Assembly: GCF_003674065.1 (NCBI RefSeq)
Contig: NZ_RDBE01000006.1
Span: 310,001 to 374,000 of the forward strand
Direction: 5' to 3'
DNA from: Nocardioides mangrovicus
GTDB taxonomy: Bacteria > Actinomycetota > Actinomycetes > Propionibacteriales > Nocardioidaceae
Length of the DNA: 64,000 nt
The notes below the pieces were generated by a model, which saw nothing but the letters and a program-made list of their open reading frames with translations, was not told where the DNA came from and searched no databases. This document shows, one piece after another, positions 36,115 through 43,142 of the stretch (position 1 is the first letter of the stretch; the number at the start of each line of letters is the position of its first letter). A program made the translations under genes and the position numbers.

Positions 36115-36956
36115 ACGCCTCGACGCCGCCACACGACCGCGCCGAGGCCGCCCCCGGCCAGCAGCACGACCACGATCACCGGCAGCCACCACGGCAGCGT
36201 CCCACCACCGGTCTGCTGACTGTCATCGGTCGTGGCCGCCGCGGGTGAGAGCGCCTGGGCGCTCGACGTCGCGCTCGGGGTGGCCGTGGGCGACGGCGTG
36301 GCGGCCGCCGGTGTCGCCGCGGTGGGGGTCGGGGTGGGCGTTGGGGTCGGCGCGGAGGTGGTGGCGGTGCTCGCCGCCACCGTCGCGGTCGACGCCGCAC
36401 GCGGCGTCGCCGAGGCCGTGGTCTTGGTCTTGGGCTTGGACTTCGTCGTGGACTTGGACGTGGGCGCGCGGGTCGGCTTCGCGGCGGAGGTGGCCTTCAC
36501 CTGCGTCGGCGCGACCCCCGGCGGGTTGGCGTTGGTGCTCCCCTGCCAGGCGAACGCGACGCTGCCGCCGGCAGGGACCTGCAGGCCTCTGACGCCGCTG
36601 GTGGAGTAGGTCCACCCACCGCCCTGGCCGTCGTTCCAGAACAGTCCCCAGTAGGCGTCGGCCGGCGAGGTGGTGGTGCACGGGTCGCTCTGCGGGGCGT
36701 TCTCGACCCGGCACACGAACCCGGGCTGGCGCGAGGCGTAGCTCAAGCTCACGCCGACGTCGCGGAAGATGTCGTCGGCGTACCGGCCGCCGCCCGCGGT
36801 GTCGCAGGACTGCCGCACCCCGCCCCCGAGCTGGTGGAAGTCGACGACGACGGTGACGCCGCCCGCGGTGCAGGCACCCGCCGAGCTCGGCGCGGCGCCC
36901 GCGGGCGCCGCGCCGAGAACCAGGAGTGCTGCGATCGCGACCAGGAGTCGGGTCAC
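36111..36956 (-). CDS. Secreted, membrane-anchored DUF4430-like protein (possible transcobalamin beta-domain analogue)
   Basis: The 281-residue protein has a signal peptide (MTRLLVAIAALLVLGAAPAGA), a globular domain (~25-140), a Thr/Pro/Lys-rich linker (~145-245) and a C-terminal membrane anchor (LPWWLPVIVVVLLAGGGLG) with basic stop-transfer. The globular part begins with GVTVVVDF, continues through ADAYWGLFWNDGQGGGWTY and ends VPAGGSVAFAW; this order resembles DUF4430, the beta domain of animal transcobalamin and intrinsic factor. Four Cys could form two disulfides. Its start overlaps the stop of the prenyltransferase-repeat gene and it is under the cobalamin riboswitch. The DUF4430 assignment is by pattern only. 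Confidence 0.75.
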   Translation of the reverse strand: MTRLLVAIAALLVLGAAPAGAAPSSAGACTAGGVTVVVDFHQLGGGVRQSCDTAGGGRYADDIFRDVGVSLSYASRQPGFVCRVENAPQSDPCTTTSPADAYWGLFWNDGQGGGWTYSTSGVRGLQVPAGGSVAFAWQGSTNANPPGVAPTQVKATSAAKPTRAPTSKSTTKSKPKTKTTASATPRAASTATVAASTATTSAPTPTPTPTPTAATPAAATPSPTATPSATSSAQALSPAAATTDDSQQTGGGTLPWWLPVIVVVLLAGGGLGAVVWRRRGV

Positions 36957-38557
36957 CGCACCACCTTGAAGGTGATGGCCCCCTTGCGAACCCCGCCGAA
37001 GCGGCCGAACACCTTCACCGTGACCTTGCGCACCCGCTTGCCGGCCTTGAAGCTCAGCGAGACCTTGCCCTGAGCATTGGCGACGCGGTTGATGGTGGTG
37101 CCGTAGACCTTGATCCGCACCGGCTCACCGGTGGCGAAGCCCTTGACGGCCAGGTACTGCCGGGCGCCGCGCTTGATCCGCTTGTGCGAGACGTAGGTCT
37201 TGAACTTCGCGTTCTGGAGCACCTGCACCGACGCCGCGGCGCTGCGACCCTGCGAGTCCACGATGGTGTAGCTGGCCGTGCCCGACTTCGGCGCCGTGAC
37301 CGAGACGTCCGCCGTGCCGCTGGCACCAGCCGTGCCGAGCTTGGCGGTACCGGGACCGGTGACGCACACCGAGTCACCCGGGGCGACTCCACTGACGCTG
37401 ATCGTCGTGGCCGCCTTCGGCCGGGCGAAGCCGTCGGTGGTGGAGACGGGGCCGGTGCCGGTGGGCGCGTTCCCGAGCACGAGCATGCCCTGGGTCGTGG
37501 CGCGGCGGAACTTGTCGAGCACGGTGGCGTTGCCGAGACCGTTGTAGCGACCGGTGCTCAGCGTGGCGGCGTCGTAGCCGACGGTGCCCTGGGCGTTCGA
37601 CAGCGCGTCCGTGCACGCGGCCGGCTGGTGCACCTGCAACGAGCGCACGTAGACGGCCGCCTTCTGGGCGGCCGCGGTGTCGCCGAGCAGGCCGAGGGCG
37701 TACCCGGCGAGACCAGTGCTGTTGGCGTTGCTGGCCGCCGTGCTGGTGCCGCCCCCGAACGAGCCGTCGGATTTCTGCTGCGAGGCCAGCCAGGTCTTCG
37801 CCGTGTTGAGCTTGGCGGTGATCGCTGGGGTGGCGGCGAGCTGGCTGAGCTGGATGACCGCGATCGACGTGGCGTCGGTGTCGGCGGTCGAGGACGCCGT
37901 GCATCCCGCCGCCGACAAGCTGAGGCTGAAGTAGCCGGCGGTGCACTCCTGGTTGAGGAGCGCGTTGACGGCGGCCGACGCCTCGCTGGATCCGGCGTTC
38001 GTCAGGCCGCGCGCGGCGTAGGCCTGACCGATAGTGCTGGCGTAGTTGTCCCCCGAGCTGTCCGCTACCACACCGGTGGTGTTGTCGGTCAGGTCGTTCA
38101 TGCGGGTCAGGATGTTCTGCCCGCCGTAGGTGCCGTTGGTGTACCCGTTCGCCTGGGCGAACACGAGGAGCTTGGCCAGCGAGTTGGCGTAGTAGGTCGT
38201 CGTGTTCGTGGAGGAGTCGGTGTAGCTGTAGTAGTCGGTCGCGTTGGTGCCGGAGGCGACCGCGTTGGCGATGGCGGTCCGCTGCGGGGCGTGGCCGCCG
38301 GCGACACCCAAAGCGTCGAAGGCGTCGATCGACAGCCCGACGTCGTTGCCGTAGGGGCCCACCATGAGGCCGCCCGACGAGAGCTGCCCGGCCACCCAGT
38401 CGGCGGCACCGGCCAGCGGCTTCGGGTCGTTCGCGGCCTGCGCGGGCGCCCCGACGAGCGCGGTACCAGCCAGCGGCAGCACGAGTGCGGCGGCGGTGGC
38501 GACGCCACGCAACCGGCGCCTTCCCGGGGCTCCCGGAGCGGCAGAGAAGATGGTCAT
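36953..38557 (-). CDS. Secreted prenyltransferase-repeat protein (possible transcobalamin alpha-domain analogue)
   Basis: The 534-residue protein has a signal peptide (~residues 15-41, ending GAPAQA). An alpha/alpha-toroid of prenyltransferase/squalene-oxidase-like repeats (~45-330) follows, for example AADWVAGQLSSGGL, WLASQQKSDGSFGG and ANSTGLAGYALGLLG. The last ~190 residues are beta-rich, with an Ig-like segment (TISVSGVAPGDSVCVTGPG) and a basic C-terminal domain. The toroid is the fold of the alpha domain of intrinsic factor and transcobalamin. The gene is directly behind a cobalamin riboswitch and is first in an operon with an ECF transporter, so I propose a cell-surface B12-capturing protein. 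Confidence 0.82.
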   Translation of the reverse strand: MTIFSAAPGAPGRRRLRGVATAAALVLPLAGTALVGAPAQAANDPKPLAGAADWVAGQLSSGGLMVGPYGNDVGLSIDAFDALGVAGGHAPQRTAIANAVASGTNATDYYSYTDSSTNTTTYYANSLAKLLVFAQANGYTNGTYGGQNILTRMNDLTDNTTGVVADSSGDNYASTIGQAYAARGLTNAGSSEASAAVNALLNQECTAGYFSLSLSAAGCTASSTADTDATSIAVIQLSQLAATPAITAKLNTAKTWLASQQKSDGSFGGGTSTAASNANSTGLAGYALGLLGDTAAAQKAAVYVRSLQVHQPAACTDALSNAQGTVGYDAATLSTGRYNGLGNATVLDKFRRATTQGMLVLGNAPTGTGPVSTTDGFARPKAATTISVSGVAPGDSVCVTGPGTAKLGTAGASGTADVSVTAPKSGTASYTIVDSQGRSAAASVQVLQNAKFKTYVSHKRIKRGARQYLAVKGFATGEPVRIKVYGTTINRVANAQGKVSLSFKAGKRVRKVTVKVFGRFGGVRKGAITFKVVR

Positions 38558-38804: not shown

Positions 38805-38878
38805 GCCCCCGTAGCTCAGCTGGATAGAGCAAGAGCCTTCTAATCTCTAGGTCGCAGGTTCGAGTCCTGCCGGGGGCG
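38805..38878 (+). tRNA. tRNA-Arg (anticodon TCT)
   Basis: The acceptor arms GCCCCCG and CGGGGGC pair fully. The D arm is GCTC..GAGC, the anticodon loop CTTCTAA gives TCT at 34-36, and the T arm is GCAGG-TTCGAGT-CCTGC. One C-T mismatch occurs at the top of the anticodon stem (31-39). CCA is not encoded. It precedes the ABC exporter gene by 84 bp. Confidence 0.93.
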
Positions 38879-38961
38879 CTGGTCCTCGCCGCAGGCGGAA
38901 CCGGAGGGCTACGACCTAGGTCCCATGGCGGATACGACCAGGTCGAGGAGATCGTCGACTC

Positions 38962-40731
38962 GTGCCTCTCCCCCTCGCGCTGCGCGTCGTCGCTCCGGCC
39001 GCCCGGCCCCAGGCTGCGCGCCTGGGGTTGGCCGCCGGTTCGGTGCTGGTGCAGGTGGGCCTGGAGCTGCTGCGGCCCTGGCCGCTGGCCCTGGCGGTCG
39101 ACCATGCGCTCGCCGCGGGGGCACGCCCGCTGCGGCTGCCCGTGCTCGGCGAGCTGGGTGCGACGTCGGCGCTGGTGCTGGCGGCCCTGGCCACCGTGGT
39201 GCTGACCGTGGGCATCGGCGCGCTCGACCTCGTCCTGGAGCGTTCCGCCGAGGGCGCGGCCGAGCGGATCGGAGCCCGGGTGCGCTCGGACATGTTCACG
39301 CGGCTGCTCACCCGTTCGTTGCGCTGGCACGACCGGACGAGGGTCGGCGAGCTGCAGTCGCGGATGAGCACCGACGTCGGCCGGCTGCAGGACGCCGTGG
39401 TGGCCACGACCACCACGCTCGTCCCCGACGCCGTGATGGTGGCGGCCGTGGTCGTGCTGATGGCGCGACTCGACCCGATGCTGGCCGTCGTCGGCCTCAG
39501 CGTGGTGCCGGTGCTGGCGCTGCTGGTGGTGGTGCAGCGGCGGCAGGTCCGTGCCGCCCAGCTCGCGGCGCGCAGCACCTCGGGCCGGCTCGCGAGCACC
39601 ACCACCGACCTGCTGCGCAACATCCGGGCGGTGCAGGCCTTCGGTCGCCACGACCGCGCCGAGACCATCCACGGCGCCGACAACCACGCGGTGCTGCGGG
39701 CCGAGCTGCGAGCCGTCGACGTGACGGCGCGGTGGACGCCGGTGGGCGACGTCGTGCTGGCCCTCGGCACGGGTCTGGTGCTGGTGGTGGGTGGCACCCA
39801 CGTGCTGCGCGGCGGGCTGAGCGTCGGTGCGCTGCTGGTGGTGCTGGCCTACCTCTCGAGCCTCTACTCCCCGGTGAAGAACCTGGCCCGGCTCTCCACC
39901 GTGCTGGCCAAGGCCTCGGTCTCGGCGGGCCGCGTGCGGGAGGTGATGGTCTGCGAGGAGGCGATCCGCGAGCACCCGCTCGCCGTCCCCGCGCCCTCGC
40001 TGCGCCACGGCATCTGGTTCGAGGACGTCAGCTTCGGCTACGAGCCGGGCCGCCCCGTCATCAGCCACCTCACCCTCGCGGTACGCGCCGGTGAGACGGT
40101 GTGCCTGCTCGGCGCCAGCGGTGGCGGCAAGAGCACCCTGACCTACCTGCTGCTCCGGCTCTACGACGTCGACTCCGGTCGCGTCACCCTCGACGGCGTC
40201 GACGTCCGCGACTGCACGCTGGCCAGCCTGCGCTCCCGGTTCGCCTACCTGCCGCAGGACCCGTGGCTGCTGGACGCCACGCTCGCCGAGAACATCGCCT
40301 TCGGAACGCCCGACGCCGACCGCGAGCAGGTCCGCGAGGCCGCTCGCCTGGCGCGGGTGGAGGAGTTCGTGGCGCGGCTGCCGCTGGGTTACGACACCCC
40401 GCTGGGTGAGAACGGCGTCCGCCTCTCCGGCGGTCAACGACGCCGGGTGGCGCTGGCCCGAGCCGTGCTCGGCGACGCGCCGATGATGCTGCTCGACGAG
40501 CCGACCGCCTCGCTCGACCAGGCCTCGGCGGAGGCGGTGCTCGACGCCGTCGGCGCCACCGTCGGGGCCGGCGCCGGGACCGGCGCCGGCGTCGTCTCCG
40601 GGGCCCCCGGCCGCCGGACCACCCTCATCGTCACCCACGACCCGCGACTGGCCGTCATGGCCGACCGCGTCCTCGAGCTGCGTCCCGGCGATCCGACCGG
40701 GACGCCCGTCGTCACCGTGGAGAGGAGGTGA
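38962..40731 (+). CDS. ABC exporter, fused permease/ATPase half-transporter
   Basis: The 589-residue protein starts at GTG 38962. Six membrane helices occupy ~15-320, including VVLAYLSSLYSPVKNLARL in the last. The ATPase has Walker A LGASGGGKST (~390), Q-loop LPQDPWLLDATLAENI, signature LSGGQRRRVAL, Walker B MMLLDEPTASLDQ and the switch VTHDPR. It works as a homodimer and is probably an exporter. A Gly/Ala-rich insert (VGAGAGTGAGVVSG) breaks the D-loop to H-loop region. It ends five bases before a 25-codon peptide gene with its own strong ribosome site, suggesting that the peptide is cargo. Confidence 0.92.
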   Translation: MPLPLALRVVAPAARPQAARLGLAAGSVLVQVGLELLRPWPLALAVDHALAAGARPLRLPVLGELGATSALVLAALATVVLTVGIGALDLVLERSAEGAAERIGARVRSDMFTRLLTRSLRWHDRTRVGELQSRMSTDVGRLQDAVVATTTTLVPDAVMVAAVVVLMARLDPMLAVVGLSVVPVLALLVVVQRRQVRAAQLAARSTSGRLASTTTDLLRNIRAVQAFGRHDRAETIHGADNHAVLRAELRAVDVTARWTPVGDVVLALGTGLVLVVGGTHVLRGGLSVGALLVVLAYLSSLYSPVKNLARLSTVLAKASVSAGRVREVMVCEEAIREHPLAVPAPSLRHGIWFEDVSFGYEPGRPVISHLTLAVRAGETVCLLGASGGGKSTLTYLLLRLYDVDSGRVTLDGVDVRDCTLASLRSRFAYLPQDPWLLDATLAENIAFGTPDADREQVREAARLARVEEFVARLPLGYDTPLGENGVRLSGGQRRRVALARAVLGDAPMMLLDEPTASLDQASAEAVLDAVGATVGAGAGTGAGVVSGAPGRRTTLIVTHDPRLAVMADRVLELRPGDPTGTPVVTVERR

Positions 40732-40736
40732 GCCTC

Positions 40737-40814
40737 ATGGTGAAGAAGGCCATCCGCAAGCACCGCACGCGCACCCGCTCGCGCTCGCGCAGCCGCTCGC
40801 GCAGCCACGGCTGA
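40737..40814 (+). CDS. 25-residue Arg-Ser/Thr repeat peptide, candidate exporter cargo or RiPP-like precursor
   Basis: ATG 40737 follows GGAGAGGAGG with an 8-base gap, one of the best ribosome sites in this region, and lies five bases after the ABC exporter stop. The peptide begins MVKKAIRKH; residues 10-23 strictly alternate Arg with Thr or Ser (R-T-R-T-R-S and on), then it ends HG. The calculated charge is strongly positive (11 Lys/Arg). No Cys is present. Next come a Ser/Thr-kinase-like protein and an FAD/NAD(P)-binding protein, so the alternating Ser/Thr or Arg residues could be modified. No family is recognised. Confidence 0.6.
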   Translation: MVKKAIRKHRTRTRSRSRSRSRSHG

Positions 40815-40900
40815 CGCGCACCCGCTCGTCTCGTCGCTCCGGTCGTTCCCCTGGACCGGAGCGACGGGGCGGGCACCGCACTCCCGGACGAGGACCCCGC

Positions 40901-41740
40901 ATGACGCTGCTGATCGAACGAGCCGATGTCGACGACGTCGACGGCCTGCCCGTGTGGGGCTTCGAGGCGGGCGAGGAGCTCGTCCCCGGCGCTCGGGCCC
41001 TCGAGCGGCTCGGCGTCGGCCACCGGTGCGAGACCTGGCTGGCCTGGTGGGCCGCCGGCTGGCACCCCGTCGTGGTCAAGCTCGCCCGCCCGCACCAACG
41101 CGACCACCCGCGCGCCCGCGCAGCGCTGCGGCGCGAGGTCGACGCCGCACTCCCCCATCCCCATCTGGCCCGGCTGCTGGTCGACGGCAGCAACGCGCCG
41201 CTGCCGTTCGTGGTCACGGAGTACCTCGACGGGCCCACCGTCGCCGACGTCGTCGACGACCAGGGCGCGTTCACCTTTGAGGACGCCGCCACGCTCGGCA
41301 GCGCCGTGCTCAGTGCGCTGCGGGCCCTGCACCGCGCCGGGCTGGCCCACCTGGACGTCAAGGCCGAGAACGTCGTGCTGCGCGACGGCAGGCCCTACCT
41401 CATCGACGCCGGCTCCGCCCGGCCGCTGGGGCGCACCCAGCCACCCGGCCGGCCCGTCGGCACCCCGGGCTACACCGCGCCGGAGATGGAGGCCTGCTCG
41501 CCGGTCGCGGCGGCGATGGACCGCTTCGGGCTCGGCACGCTGCTGGCCGAGGCGCTCACCGGCACGCCCTTCCCCGAGGCCGGGCGGCTGCCCGACGTCG
41601 CGCTGGCCGCGGTCGTCCGTCGGTTGCTCGACGCCGACCCACTGGCGCGCGGCACCGACGAGTCGATCCTCGGTGAGCTCGCCGAGCTCACCGGCGAGGA
41701 CCGACCCTGGCCGACCTGGGCCGACGCCGACCTGGCCTGA
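40901..41740 (+). CDS. Ser/Thr protein kinase-like protein
   Basis: The 279-residue protein has a compact eukaryotic-like kinase domain. Visible elements are the VAIK-type lysine in HPVVVKLARP (Lys60), catalytic loop HLDVKAENVVL (150-160, with Asp152, Lys154 and Asn157), the DFG equivalent IDAGSA (Asp169) and GTPGYTAPEM (~188). The glycine-rich loop is poor, but all catalytic residues are there, so activity is plausible. There is no membrane segment or sensor domain. It starts at ATG 40901 after GAGGA, 86 bp behind the Arg-Ser peptide gene, whose Ser/Thr residues are obvious candidate targets. Confidence 0.85.
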   Translation: MTLLIERADVDDVDGLPVWGFEAGEELVPGARALERLGVGHRCETWLAWWAAGWHPVVVKLARPHQRDHPRARAALRREVDAALPHPHLARLLVDGSNAPLPFVVTEYLDGPTVADVVDDQGAFTFEDAATLGSAVLSALRALHRAGLAHLDVKAENVVLRDGRPYLIDAGSARPLGRTQPPGRPVGTPGYTAPEMEACSPVAAAMDRFGLGTLLAEALTGTPFPEAGRLPDVALAAVVRRLLDADPLARGTDESILGELAELTGEDRPWPTWADADLA

Positions 41741-41816: not shown

Positions 41817-43142
41817 ATGCGGGTCACACGGGTGGTGATCGTCGGCGGTGGCGCCGGCGGCGTGATCACGGCGGCCCAGCTGCTGCGGAGCGCGACCTCG
41901 CACGACCCGGTGCACGTGACCCTGGTCGAGCAGCGCCCACGCACCGGACCCGGGCTGGCCTACCGCACCCGGCACCGGCTGCACACGCTCAACAACTACG
42001 CCGGGCGGCTCAGCGCGTTCGCCGACCGTCCCGACGACCTCGTCGCCTGGTGCCGCGAGCGCCAGTACGCCGCCCACGAGCACTCCTTCCTCCCGCGCGG
42101 GCTCTACGGCGACTACCTGGCCGAGGTGCTCGACCGCGTCGACGTCCCCACGGGGAGCGCCGTGGAACAGGTCCGCGGCGAGGTGGTCGACCTGCTCCCG
42201 GGACGCCCGCACGCTGTGATCGTCCGGACCGCACCCAACGAGCCCGAGCAGCTGCTCCGCCTCGCCGCCGACAAGGTGGTGCTGGCCCTGGGCAACCCGC
42301 CGGTCGGCCGGCTGCGGCACCTGGAGTCGCTCGGCGCCCGCTATGTGGCCGACCCGTGGGCCGAGGACCTGGTCGAGCAGGTCGGCCCGGCCGACCACGT
42401 GCTGCTGGTCGGCACCGGACTGACCACCATCGACGTGGCCGCGCAGCTGCACGAGGCCGACCCGTCGGTGCGGCTGGTGGCGGTCTCCCGCCACGGACTG
42501 CTGCCGCGCACGCACCTGCCCTTCCCTGCCACCACCGGCGGCCCGTGGACCCCGCCGGGCGGCTCGCTGAGCGCGGTGCTCAGCGGCGCCCGCGCCGGCG
42601 TCGAGGAGCGCGAGGGCGAGTGGCGGCCCGTCGCCGACTCGCTGCGTGAGTACGTCAACGACCTCTGGCACGGGCTGCCGCCCGCCCACCGCGAACGCTT
42701 CGTGCGCCACGTCGCGCGCTGGTGGGAGGTCCACCGCCACCGCACCTCACCGGAGATGGGCGACCGCATCCGCGGCCTCGTCGACGCCGGCTCGCTGCGG
42801 GTCGCGCACCCCGACGATGTCGAGCCGGCCAGCTTCGACAAGGTCGTCAACTGCACCGGCCCCTCGCCGGTGTTCAGCTCCGGCTGGAACCCGCTGGTCG
42901 ACGCCCTCCTCGAGCGCGGCCTGATCAGGCCGCACCCGCTGGGGCGGGGCCTCGACCTCGACCCCGACGCCGGCCCCATCGGCGTCGACGGCGCGGTGCT
43001 ACCCGGCGTGCACGTCGTGGGCGCCGCGCGCCGGGGCCTGGAGTGGGAGGTCGCGGCCATCCCCGACCTGCGCGAACAGGCGTTCCGGCTGGCTCGGGCC
43101 TGGCAGCCCGTGCCGACGCCGACCACCGCGGTCCGGCCGTAG
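41817..43142 (+). CDS. FAD/NAD(P)-binding protein (NAD_binding_9-like flavoprotein)
   Basis: The 441-residue protein has an N-terminal dinucleotide fold VVIVGGGAGGVITAAQL (6-22) and the family segment LNNYAGRLSAFADRPDDLVAWCR (in two pieces around 58-82). A second Rossmann motif is HVLLVGTGLTTIDVAAQL (~197-214), and a C-terminal VNCTGPSP and HVVGAARRGLEWE region is typical of this flavoprotein class. It resembles single-component N-hydroxylating or other monooxygenases. It is last in the putative exporter/peptide/kinase cluster, with its own inverted-repeat leader. The substrate is unknown. Confidence 0.85.
   Translation: MRVTRVVIVGGGAGGVITAAQLLRSATSHDPVHVTLVEQRPRTGPGLAYRTRHRLHTLNNYAGRLSAFADRPDDLVAWCRERQYAAHEHSFLPRGLYGDYLAEVLDRVDVPTGSAVEQVRGEVVDLLPGRPHAVIVRTAPNEPEQLLRLAADKVVLALGNPPVGRLRHLESLGARYVADPWAEDLVEQVGPADHVLLVGTGLTTIDVAAQLHEADPSVRLVAVSRHGLLPRTHLPFPATTGGPWTPPGGSLSAVLSGARAGVEEREGEWRPVADSLREYVNDLWHGLPPAHRERFVRHVARWWEVHRHRTSPEMGDRIRGLVDAGSLRVAHPDDVEPASFDKVVNCTGPSPVFSSGWNPLVDALLERGLIRPHPLGRGLDLDPDAGPIGVDGAVLPGVHVVGAARRGLEWEVAAIPDLREQAFRLARAWQPVPTPTTAVRP

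Follow-up and report, generated by a model that had tools for sequence, protein, structure and literature searches.

A conserved bacterial gene for an Arg-Ser/Thr repeat peptide in fixed order with exporter and protein kinase genes

The 64,000-nucleotide stretch of the Nocardioides mangrovicus genome analysed here (the window) carries a real, conserved bacterial gene for an Arg-Ser/Thr repeat peptide, which is under selection and stands in a fixed order with the genes of an ABC exporter and a Ser/Thr protein kinase. A sequence-only reading had pointed to an alternating Arg-Thr/Ser peptide at 40737–40814; both coordinates and alternation proved exact, the translation giving 25 residues with seven R-[ST] pairs and zero Cys. 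A gene of this length probably escapes standard gene callers, as that reading had held. The conserved unit extends beyond that reading in both directions, to the exporter gene and to the kinase gene, and its features in the window are as follows:

38962–40731, plus strand: ABC exporter with membrane domain and ATPase, 589 aa (Pfam ABC_membrane 6.5e-33, ABC_tran 1.2e-30)
40724–40731, plus strand: ribosome-binding site GGAGGTGA, read from the sequence, overlapping the exporter stop codon
40737–40814, plus strand: Arg-Ser/Thr repeat peptide gene, 25 aa, MVKKAIRKHRTRTRSRSRSRSRSHG (exact translation, orthologues)
40824–40874, plus strand: RNA hairpin with a 21-bp stem (40824–40844 with 40854–40874; −49.1 kcal/mol, z −2.57)
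40901–41740, plus strand: soluble Ser/Thr protein kinase, 279 aa, with a CETWLAW motif (Pfam Pkinase 2.8e-23)

The ribosome-binding site is built from the last codons and the stop codon of the exporter gene, the peptide start follows five bases after that stop, and 86 bases separate the end of the peptide gene from the start of the kinase gene. In the run, CGC serves for Arg throughout (seven codons), while Ser is encoded by three TCG and two AGC codons and Thr by one ACG and one ACC. A six-frame search of the window gave no other R-[ST] run of five or more pairs, and sixty simulated 64-kb windows (order-3 Markov) produced none that long and two of at least four pairs. Across the whole 4.1-Mb genome a degenerate six-unit CGN-WSN pattern matched five times (reversed control pattern, three times), two of the five matches being registers of the peptide locus and the other three pure DNA microsatellites that code for something other than Arg-Ser. 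A chance control using MGN-WSN times four in the same genome was discarded as too loose (522 matches, control 729) in favour of the tighter CGN-WSN pattern. The microsatellites at C1:200808, C3:74492 and C19:681950 of G000 (CGTTGC, CGGTGC and CGGTGT) consist of identical six-base units, unlike the peptide locus. No Pfam or NCBIfam family matched the peptides above cut-off; the weak profile matches of a Kribbella peptide were splicing factors, owing to its composition.

Several neighbouring features of the window were also recorded. A tRNA-Arg gene (anticodon TCT; 38805–38879) lies just 5′ of the exporter gene and was not linked to the peptide because the peptide repeat uses CGC codons. A 534-aa protein with a signal-like start and without a Pfam or NCBIfam match is encoded on the minus strand at 36953–38557, and a FAD/NAD(P)-binding protein (NAD_binding_9) lies 3′ of the kinase gene at 41817–43142; the latter gene was not seen as kept in the other listed neighbourhoods of exporter-peptide-kinase triads (type I loci).

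Most species in this genus lack the unit: among 24 examined genomes it was present in two, that of the window and G017. A search of genome contigs with two kinases returned seven loci, comprising three from Kribbella (K. pratensis, K. pittospori and K. jiaozuonensis; 51–53% identity), one from G017 (a Marmoricola metagenome assembly) and three distant kinases from other phyla, of which the one inspected (L086) had no such peptide. A profile was then built from five kinases and used on genomes of the order and the phylum. The order search gave 13 of 391 genomes at E < 1e-90 (nine from family f3, all in the Kribbella-containing genus g16, three from family f2, and the window's own), and the phylum search four of 396 at E < 1e-69 (the window's own and three of family f23, which belongs to another class). 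The class of f23 was represented by three genomes, all with the unit; in f2 it was found in the same three of 147 genomes. Among 384 genomes of the window's own class, the type I kinase was confined to the window's genome, and the other six matches at E < 1e-55 included kinases with Ser/Thr-repeat neighbours. A plasmid search with the kinase protein gave no match. The loci from the profile searches together with G017 make up 17 distinct type I loci, the named Kribbella records being repeats that were not added; these are the loci recovered by the strongest kinase matches, and they span four families and two classes.

A peptide gene was found between the exporter and kinase genes in 17/17 type I loci, examples of its product being MRIKPVMHHGRSRSRSRSRSRSRSRSRSRG (Kribbella), MPRIAPTMYHKRHRRHRKHSRSWSRSCSRSRSRSRSRC (G411), MIIIRIKGLVADRKHGRSRSRSRSRSYSRSRSRY (G370), MKAFHLGIKGLLSKRSHSRSRSRSRSRSRSRSRG (G420), MSRGRGRGRRVRGGHKVFSHHGGPSASSMSRSRTRTRTRTRG (G587) and MSTTHSSLIRGLAEAYPAQTSQRRTRTRTRGRTRTGHRRGHGRGHR (G017). 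G479 carries two tandem Arg-Ser peptide genes with one kinase (L109 1100–1382, reverse complement), the cores of which are identical at the protein level while their leaders differ. An alternating Arg stretch was seen in 17 of 18 type I peptides, strict alternation having been lost in that of G601 (end CGWRTSTTSRSCSSRSQSCD). The partner of Arg may be replaced by Thr, Gly, Tyr, Cys, His or Trp, with Arg itself unchanged. Each of the 18 peptide genes has a purine-rich ribosome site, GGAGG or GGGGG, in front of it. Leaders of type I are short and differ between families.

The sequence-only reading had taken the mixture of Ser codons as a sign of a protein pattern rather than a DNA repeat, had proposed comparing related species, and had named a variable CGCTCG microsatellite with shifted frames as the outcome that would speak against a gene. 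This comparison bore it out: R-[ST] alternation persists from family to family while Ser is written with both TCN and AGY codons and Arg with CGC, CGT or CGG, purifying selection is visible, and no such microsatellite was seen among the orthologues. Over all stretches, Arg was encoded by CGC (76), CGT (32), CGG (26) and AGG (1), and Ser/Thr by AGC (55), TCC (25), TCG (22), ACC (9), ACG (6) and AGT (3); repeat units within a single gene share just 63–83% of their bases. Six Kribbella peptides, which come from close relatives, differed by 35 synonymous versus 10 non-synonymous changes over 15 non-independent pairs (pS 0.097, pN 0.010), and the peptides of G393 and G411 gave pS 0.48 and pN 0.07.

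The exporter of the window is 42–63% identical to those of four other triad loci. Its profile matches were P-glycoprotein-like and MsbA-like transporters, a broad multidrug/lipid-like group; Pfam gave ABC_membrane and ABC_tran only, and a C39 peptidase domain was not found. A divergently oriented pair of genes for a histidine kinase and a LuxR-type response regulator stands beside the exporter gene in 9/9 distinct loci with long flanks from f3 (the Kribbella family) and f2, and in 0/5 of the window, G017 and the three f23 loci. The histidine kinase (L082–L084, L161–L166) has a HisKA_3 domain and a sensor domain of about 150 residues between two membrane segments. An acidic sensor domain was considered as a sign of peptide sensing and rejected, as no uniform acidic bias was present. 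Folding of the region behind the peptide stop codon revealed a hairpin in 5/5 loci tested (z −2.6 to −6.0), and a second test with 60 shuffles each gave z < −2 in 15/17 loci, the exceptions being L128 (−0.4) and L105 (−1.9).

The catalytic residues K60, E79, D152, N157 and D169 of the kinase are invariant in 11/11 aligned kinase rows, and the triad kinases show HLD where HRD is usual. Mycobacterial PknB is the nearest solved relative by sequence (1.7e-37); PknB, StkP and PknA ranked first in the profile search, with no SRPK or CLK among the best 60 matches shown. The AlphaFold2 model (pLDDT 85.8) retrieved kinases only in Foldseek, with TM-scores of ~0.5 despite good E-values, and was not taken as a clue to the substrate. 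The NCBIfam LanL score was 66.6 bits against a cut-off of 650. PADLOC matches (PD-T4-6, MAD6) were considered as pointing to a defence role and rejected as generic kinase-domain matches. Net charge was likewise rejected as a sign of a basic substrate: it does not discriminate triad from other kinases (means per 100 aa, −4.4 vs −3.2; range −7.4 to 0.8), and as the former show no clear excess of acidity, the values lend no support to a docking site matched by charge. In a 46-row tree, which leaves out row L131, the type I kinases formed one clade with support of 97/96.

A second layout (type II) was identified in the window's family, where a profile search yielded 33 of 245 genomes at E < 1e-55. 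Type II kinases carry the motif DTWDAWDE or similar and are encoded 3′ of an exporter gene whose product is about 35% identical to that of the window, with no room for a peptide between the two. The view that these pairs are peptide-free was rejected, as Arg-rich peptides were found further upstream, before the exporter gene. We read 28 such loci, namely 26 of the 28 best places (G110 and G331 left out) together with G266 and G144. Peptides (for example MARSGILTALAPAVQARRGDSSSDDGRRRRRRRRRRNRSRSRSRSS) were present in 26/28, all with the leader M-A-R-S-x-[ILV]-[FLI]-x-[AS]-L-x-P-A or a near variant; unlike the type I leaders, this leader is conserved. It is mostly followed by a Ser/Asp stretch, an Arg run and an end such as NRSRSRSRTN or NRSRSRS. 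Peptides of L173–L176 and L209–L230 combine the leader MARSGILTALxPA with about ten consecutive Arg residues and an RSRSRS end, and in G184 a type II leader is joined to TGTGTGTRTRTRTRG (RTRTRTRG end). G144 has an exporter-kinase pair with no such peptide found nearby, and in G326 (L208) neither peptide nor exporter was found. The exporter was adjacent in 25 of the 26 type II loci where our script recognised one, L209 being the exception.

A third group was drawn from 36 further loci, namely all non-type-I kinase matches listed in the order, phylum and class searches, less two same-genome repeats. Immediately upstream of the kinase gene, 28/36 by rule and 26/36 after inspection by eye have a gene for a Ser/Thr-rich low-complexity protein, with ends such as RDRDKSRGDKTRDWTRDGGDRTRDKTANNTNDRSRNDTRG and NTAPTKNTAPTKNTAP and repeats such as TRD, SRDRDKSRGDKTRDWTRDGG and NTAPTKNTAPT; two of these proteins were tested against Pfam and gave no match. 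The kinases of the repeat-linked loci (L110–L126, L132, L133, L135, L139, L140, L144, L155–L157) form a clade sister to the triad kinases and, with their Ser/Thr-rich proteins, may represent a separate substrate-kinase system. In a 36-row tree that included type II, the triad clade had support of 85/85, and type I, type II and repeat-linked clades fell together, apart from other kinases. What all three groups share is a low-complexity partner that contains Ser/Thr and is Arg-Ser-rich in two of them.

The simplest reading of these arrangements is that each kinase is dedicated to the peptide encoded next to it, and that in types I and II the product leaves the cell via the ABC protein. We therefore favour, with somewhat more confidence than doubt, a RiPP-like cassette in which the kinase would phosphorylate the Arg-Ser/Thr tail and the ABC protein would export the peptide. 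The peptide would be overproduced from its strong ribosome site, while the hairpin behind it may hold down expression of the kinase gene further on. Recognition would fall to the short N-terminal part of the peptide and the Arg-Ser/Thr run would serve as substrate, the co-encoded kinase presumably phosphorylating Ser/Thr beside Arg. Were every Ser/Thr to be phosphorylated, much of the Arg-Ser charge would be offset, which suggests producer protection or a transport mark: the modification could neutralise a very basic peptide in the cell or tag it for transport. The ABC protein would then carry the peptide out, and outside the cell it might act as a signal, a cell-surface binder or an antimicrobial. 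In Kribbella and f2, the neighbouring two-component system probably controls the operon. Points against the cassette reading are the degenerate peptide of G601, the two peptide-free type II loci, the non-universal two-component system, a multidrug/lipid-like exporter without a peptidase domain, and the lack of a distinctive charge in the triad kinases and of a uniform acidic bias in the histidine-kinase sensor domains. The exceptions G144 and G326 also suggest that exporter and kinase may be linked independently of the peptide.

A more far-reaching version, to which we give somewhat less than even credence, is that of an actinobacterial SR-peptide/SR-kinase system that arose apart from the eukaryotic one and produces a new class of secreted phosphopeptides. 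One kinase clade would have Arg-Ser/Thr peptides as its dedicated multisite substrates, the genes being arranged in three ways (exporter-peptide-kinase, peptide-exporter-kinase and repeat protein-kinase), and phosphorylation would turn a toxic polycation into a neutral zwitterion, allowing safe storage and export.

A different fate for the peptide is conceivable, in which it stays intracellular and binds nucleic acid or another polyanion like a protamine, the kinase switching this binding and the exporter moving something else. The resemblance to protamine or SR-type sequences had been remarked on in the sequence-only reading and holds in so far as R-[ST] alternation is kept in the orthologues and the peptide gene adjoins a Ser/Thr kinase gene; this composition, together with the runs of about ten Arg in type II peptides, is what an intracellular binder could look like. 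The protamine label, however, implies nucleic-acid packing; the likeness is one of composition only, and the adjacent exporter (17/17 type I and 25/26 type II loci) speaks for another role. As peptides of 25–58 aa with a conserved N-terminal leader also resemble precursors and the peptide has no RNA-binding domain, we regard intracellular binding as unlikely.

It also seems improbable that the short frame is a regulatory leader (an attenuator or stalling peptide), with the pace of translation over the Arg-Ser run, together with the hairpin, setting kinase expression. A short, Arg-rich coding sequence followed by a strong hairpin before the kinase gene in 15/17 loci would suit such a device, but the two tandem peptide genes of G479, the position of the type II peptide before the exporter instead and the conservation of the leader part do not. 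Arg and Ser codons, moreover, vary freely, so that no single tRNA appears to be watched, and in joint folds, a weak test, 3–28 coding bases paired with bases 3′ of the stop codon without a shared alternative structure.

A further reading, which we consider quite doubtful, is that the kinase acts on the exporter to gate transport of an unrelated substrate and that the peptide is a pseudosubstrate inhibitor or kinase sensor. Basophilic kinases such as SR kinases generally bind Arg-Ser repeats well, and the exporter-kinase pair of G144 without a detected peptide also fits this reading; the presence of peptides in 17/17 type I and 26/28 type II loci does not, nor do the kept Ser/Thr residues, which a pseudosubstrate would not need. 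Exporter-free sister kinases, furthermore, pair with Ser/Thr-rich repeat proteins, which makes the repeat partner the common theme. Finally, although GC-rich microsatellites occur in the window's genome, the idea that the open frame arose by chance in a GC-rich repeat is refuted by the comparative evidence, namely conservation over families and classes with changing codons, together with the ribosome sites before the peptides and simulations without a comparable run.

Compared with known systems, the pairing of peptide, kinase and exporter resembles the SR-protein/SR-kinase pairs of animals and seems to have arisen separately. Shared with SR proteins and SRPK/CLK are uninterrupted Arg-Ser dipeptide repeats, a Ser/Thr kinase (its gene alongside in the bacterial unit) and plausible multisite substrates. 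In contrast to SR proteins, the bacterial peptide has no RNA-recognition motif (25 aa in the window, no Pfam match above cut-off); it is a free peptide of 25–46 aa, the unit includes an exporter, and the closest solved kinases are PknB, with no SRPK among the best 60 shown. With PknB and other Hanks-type kinases the window's kinase shares the fold and the best sequence match, but it is soluble, lacks a sensor domain, has HLD for HRD and is linked to a repeat peptide.

The likeness to RiPP clusters lies in a short precursor-like gene with leader-like and core-like parts beside enzyme and exporter genes, a hairpin behind the precursor and, in some loci, a two-component system. A short gene beside a putative modifying-enzyme gene, the arrangement typical of RiPPs, recurs across species in 17/17 type I and 26/28 type II loci. 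The sole enzyme here, however, is a stand-alone protein kinase, and the conserved unit yielded no cyclase, lyase, radical SAM enzyme or protease; unlike C39-type exporters, the window's exporter has no N-terminal C39 domain by Pfam. The parts of the unit (RiPP-like precursor, enzyme, exporter) are of known kinds. In class III, IV and V lanthipeptides (LanKC, LanL and LxmK), a kinase or kinase domain acts on Ser/Thr of the precursor. These systems likewise pair a kinase with a Ser/Thr-bearing peptide, action of the window's kinase on its peptide being presumed, but the window's kinase is a single domain of 279 aa without lyase or cyclase, and its peptide has no Cys.

RS domains are rare in bacteria according to a survey of SR-related proteins in all domains of life (Cascarina and Ross 2022, PMC9479744), the passages of which on RS domains make no mention of an actinobacterial peptide-kinase pair. 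Titles and abstract openings in the open-access literature described no such unit, preprints and subscription papers lying outside this scope.

In dozens of genomes, members of the kinase clade have genes for Arg-rich or Ser/Thr-rich repeats as neighbours. If the kinase does phosphorylate the repeats, this would draw attention to many unannotated small genes, and bacteria would own a version of a famous eukaryotic substrate-kinase pair, with substrate, enzyme and exporter in one short operon that could be rebuilt in the laboratory. The peptides would then form a class with a Hanks-type kinase as the only tailoring enzyme, and would provide natural dedicated substrates for bacterial Ser/Thr kinases, filling a long-standing gap.
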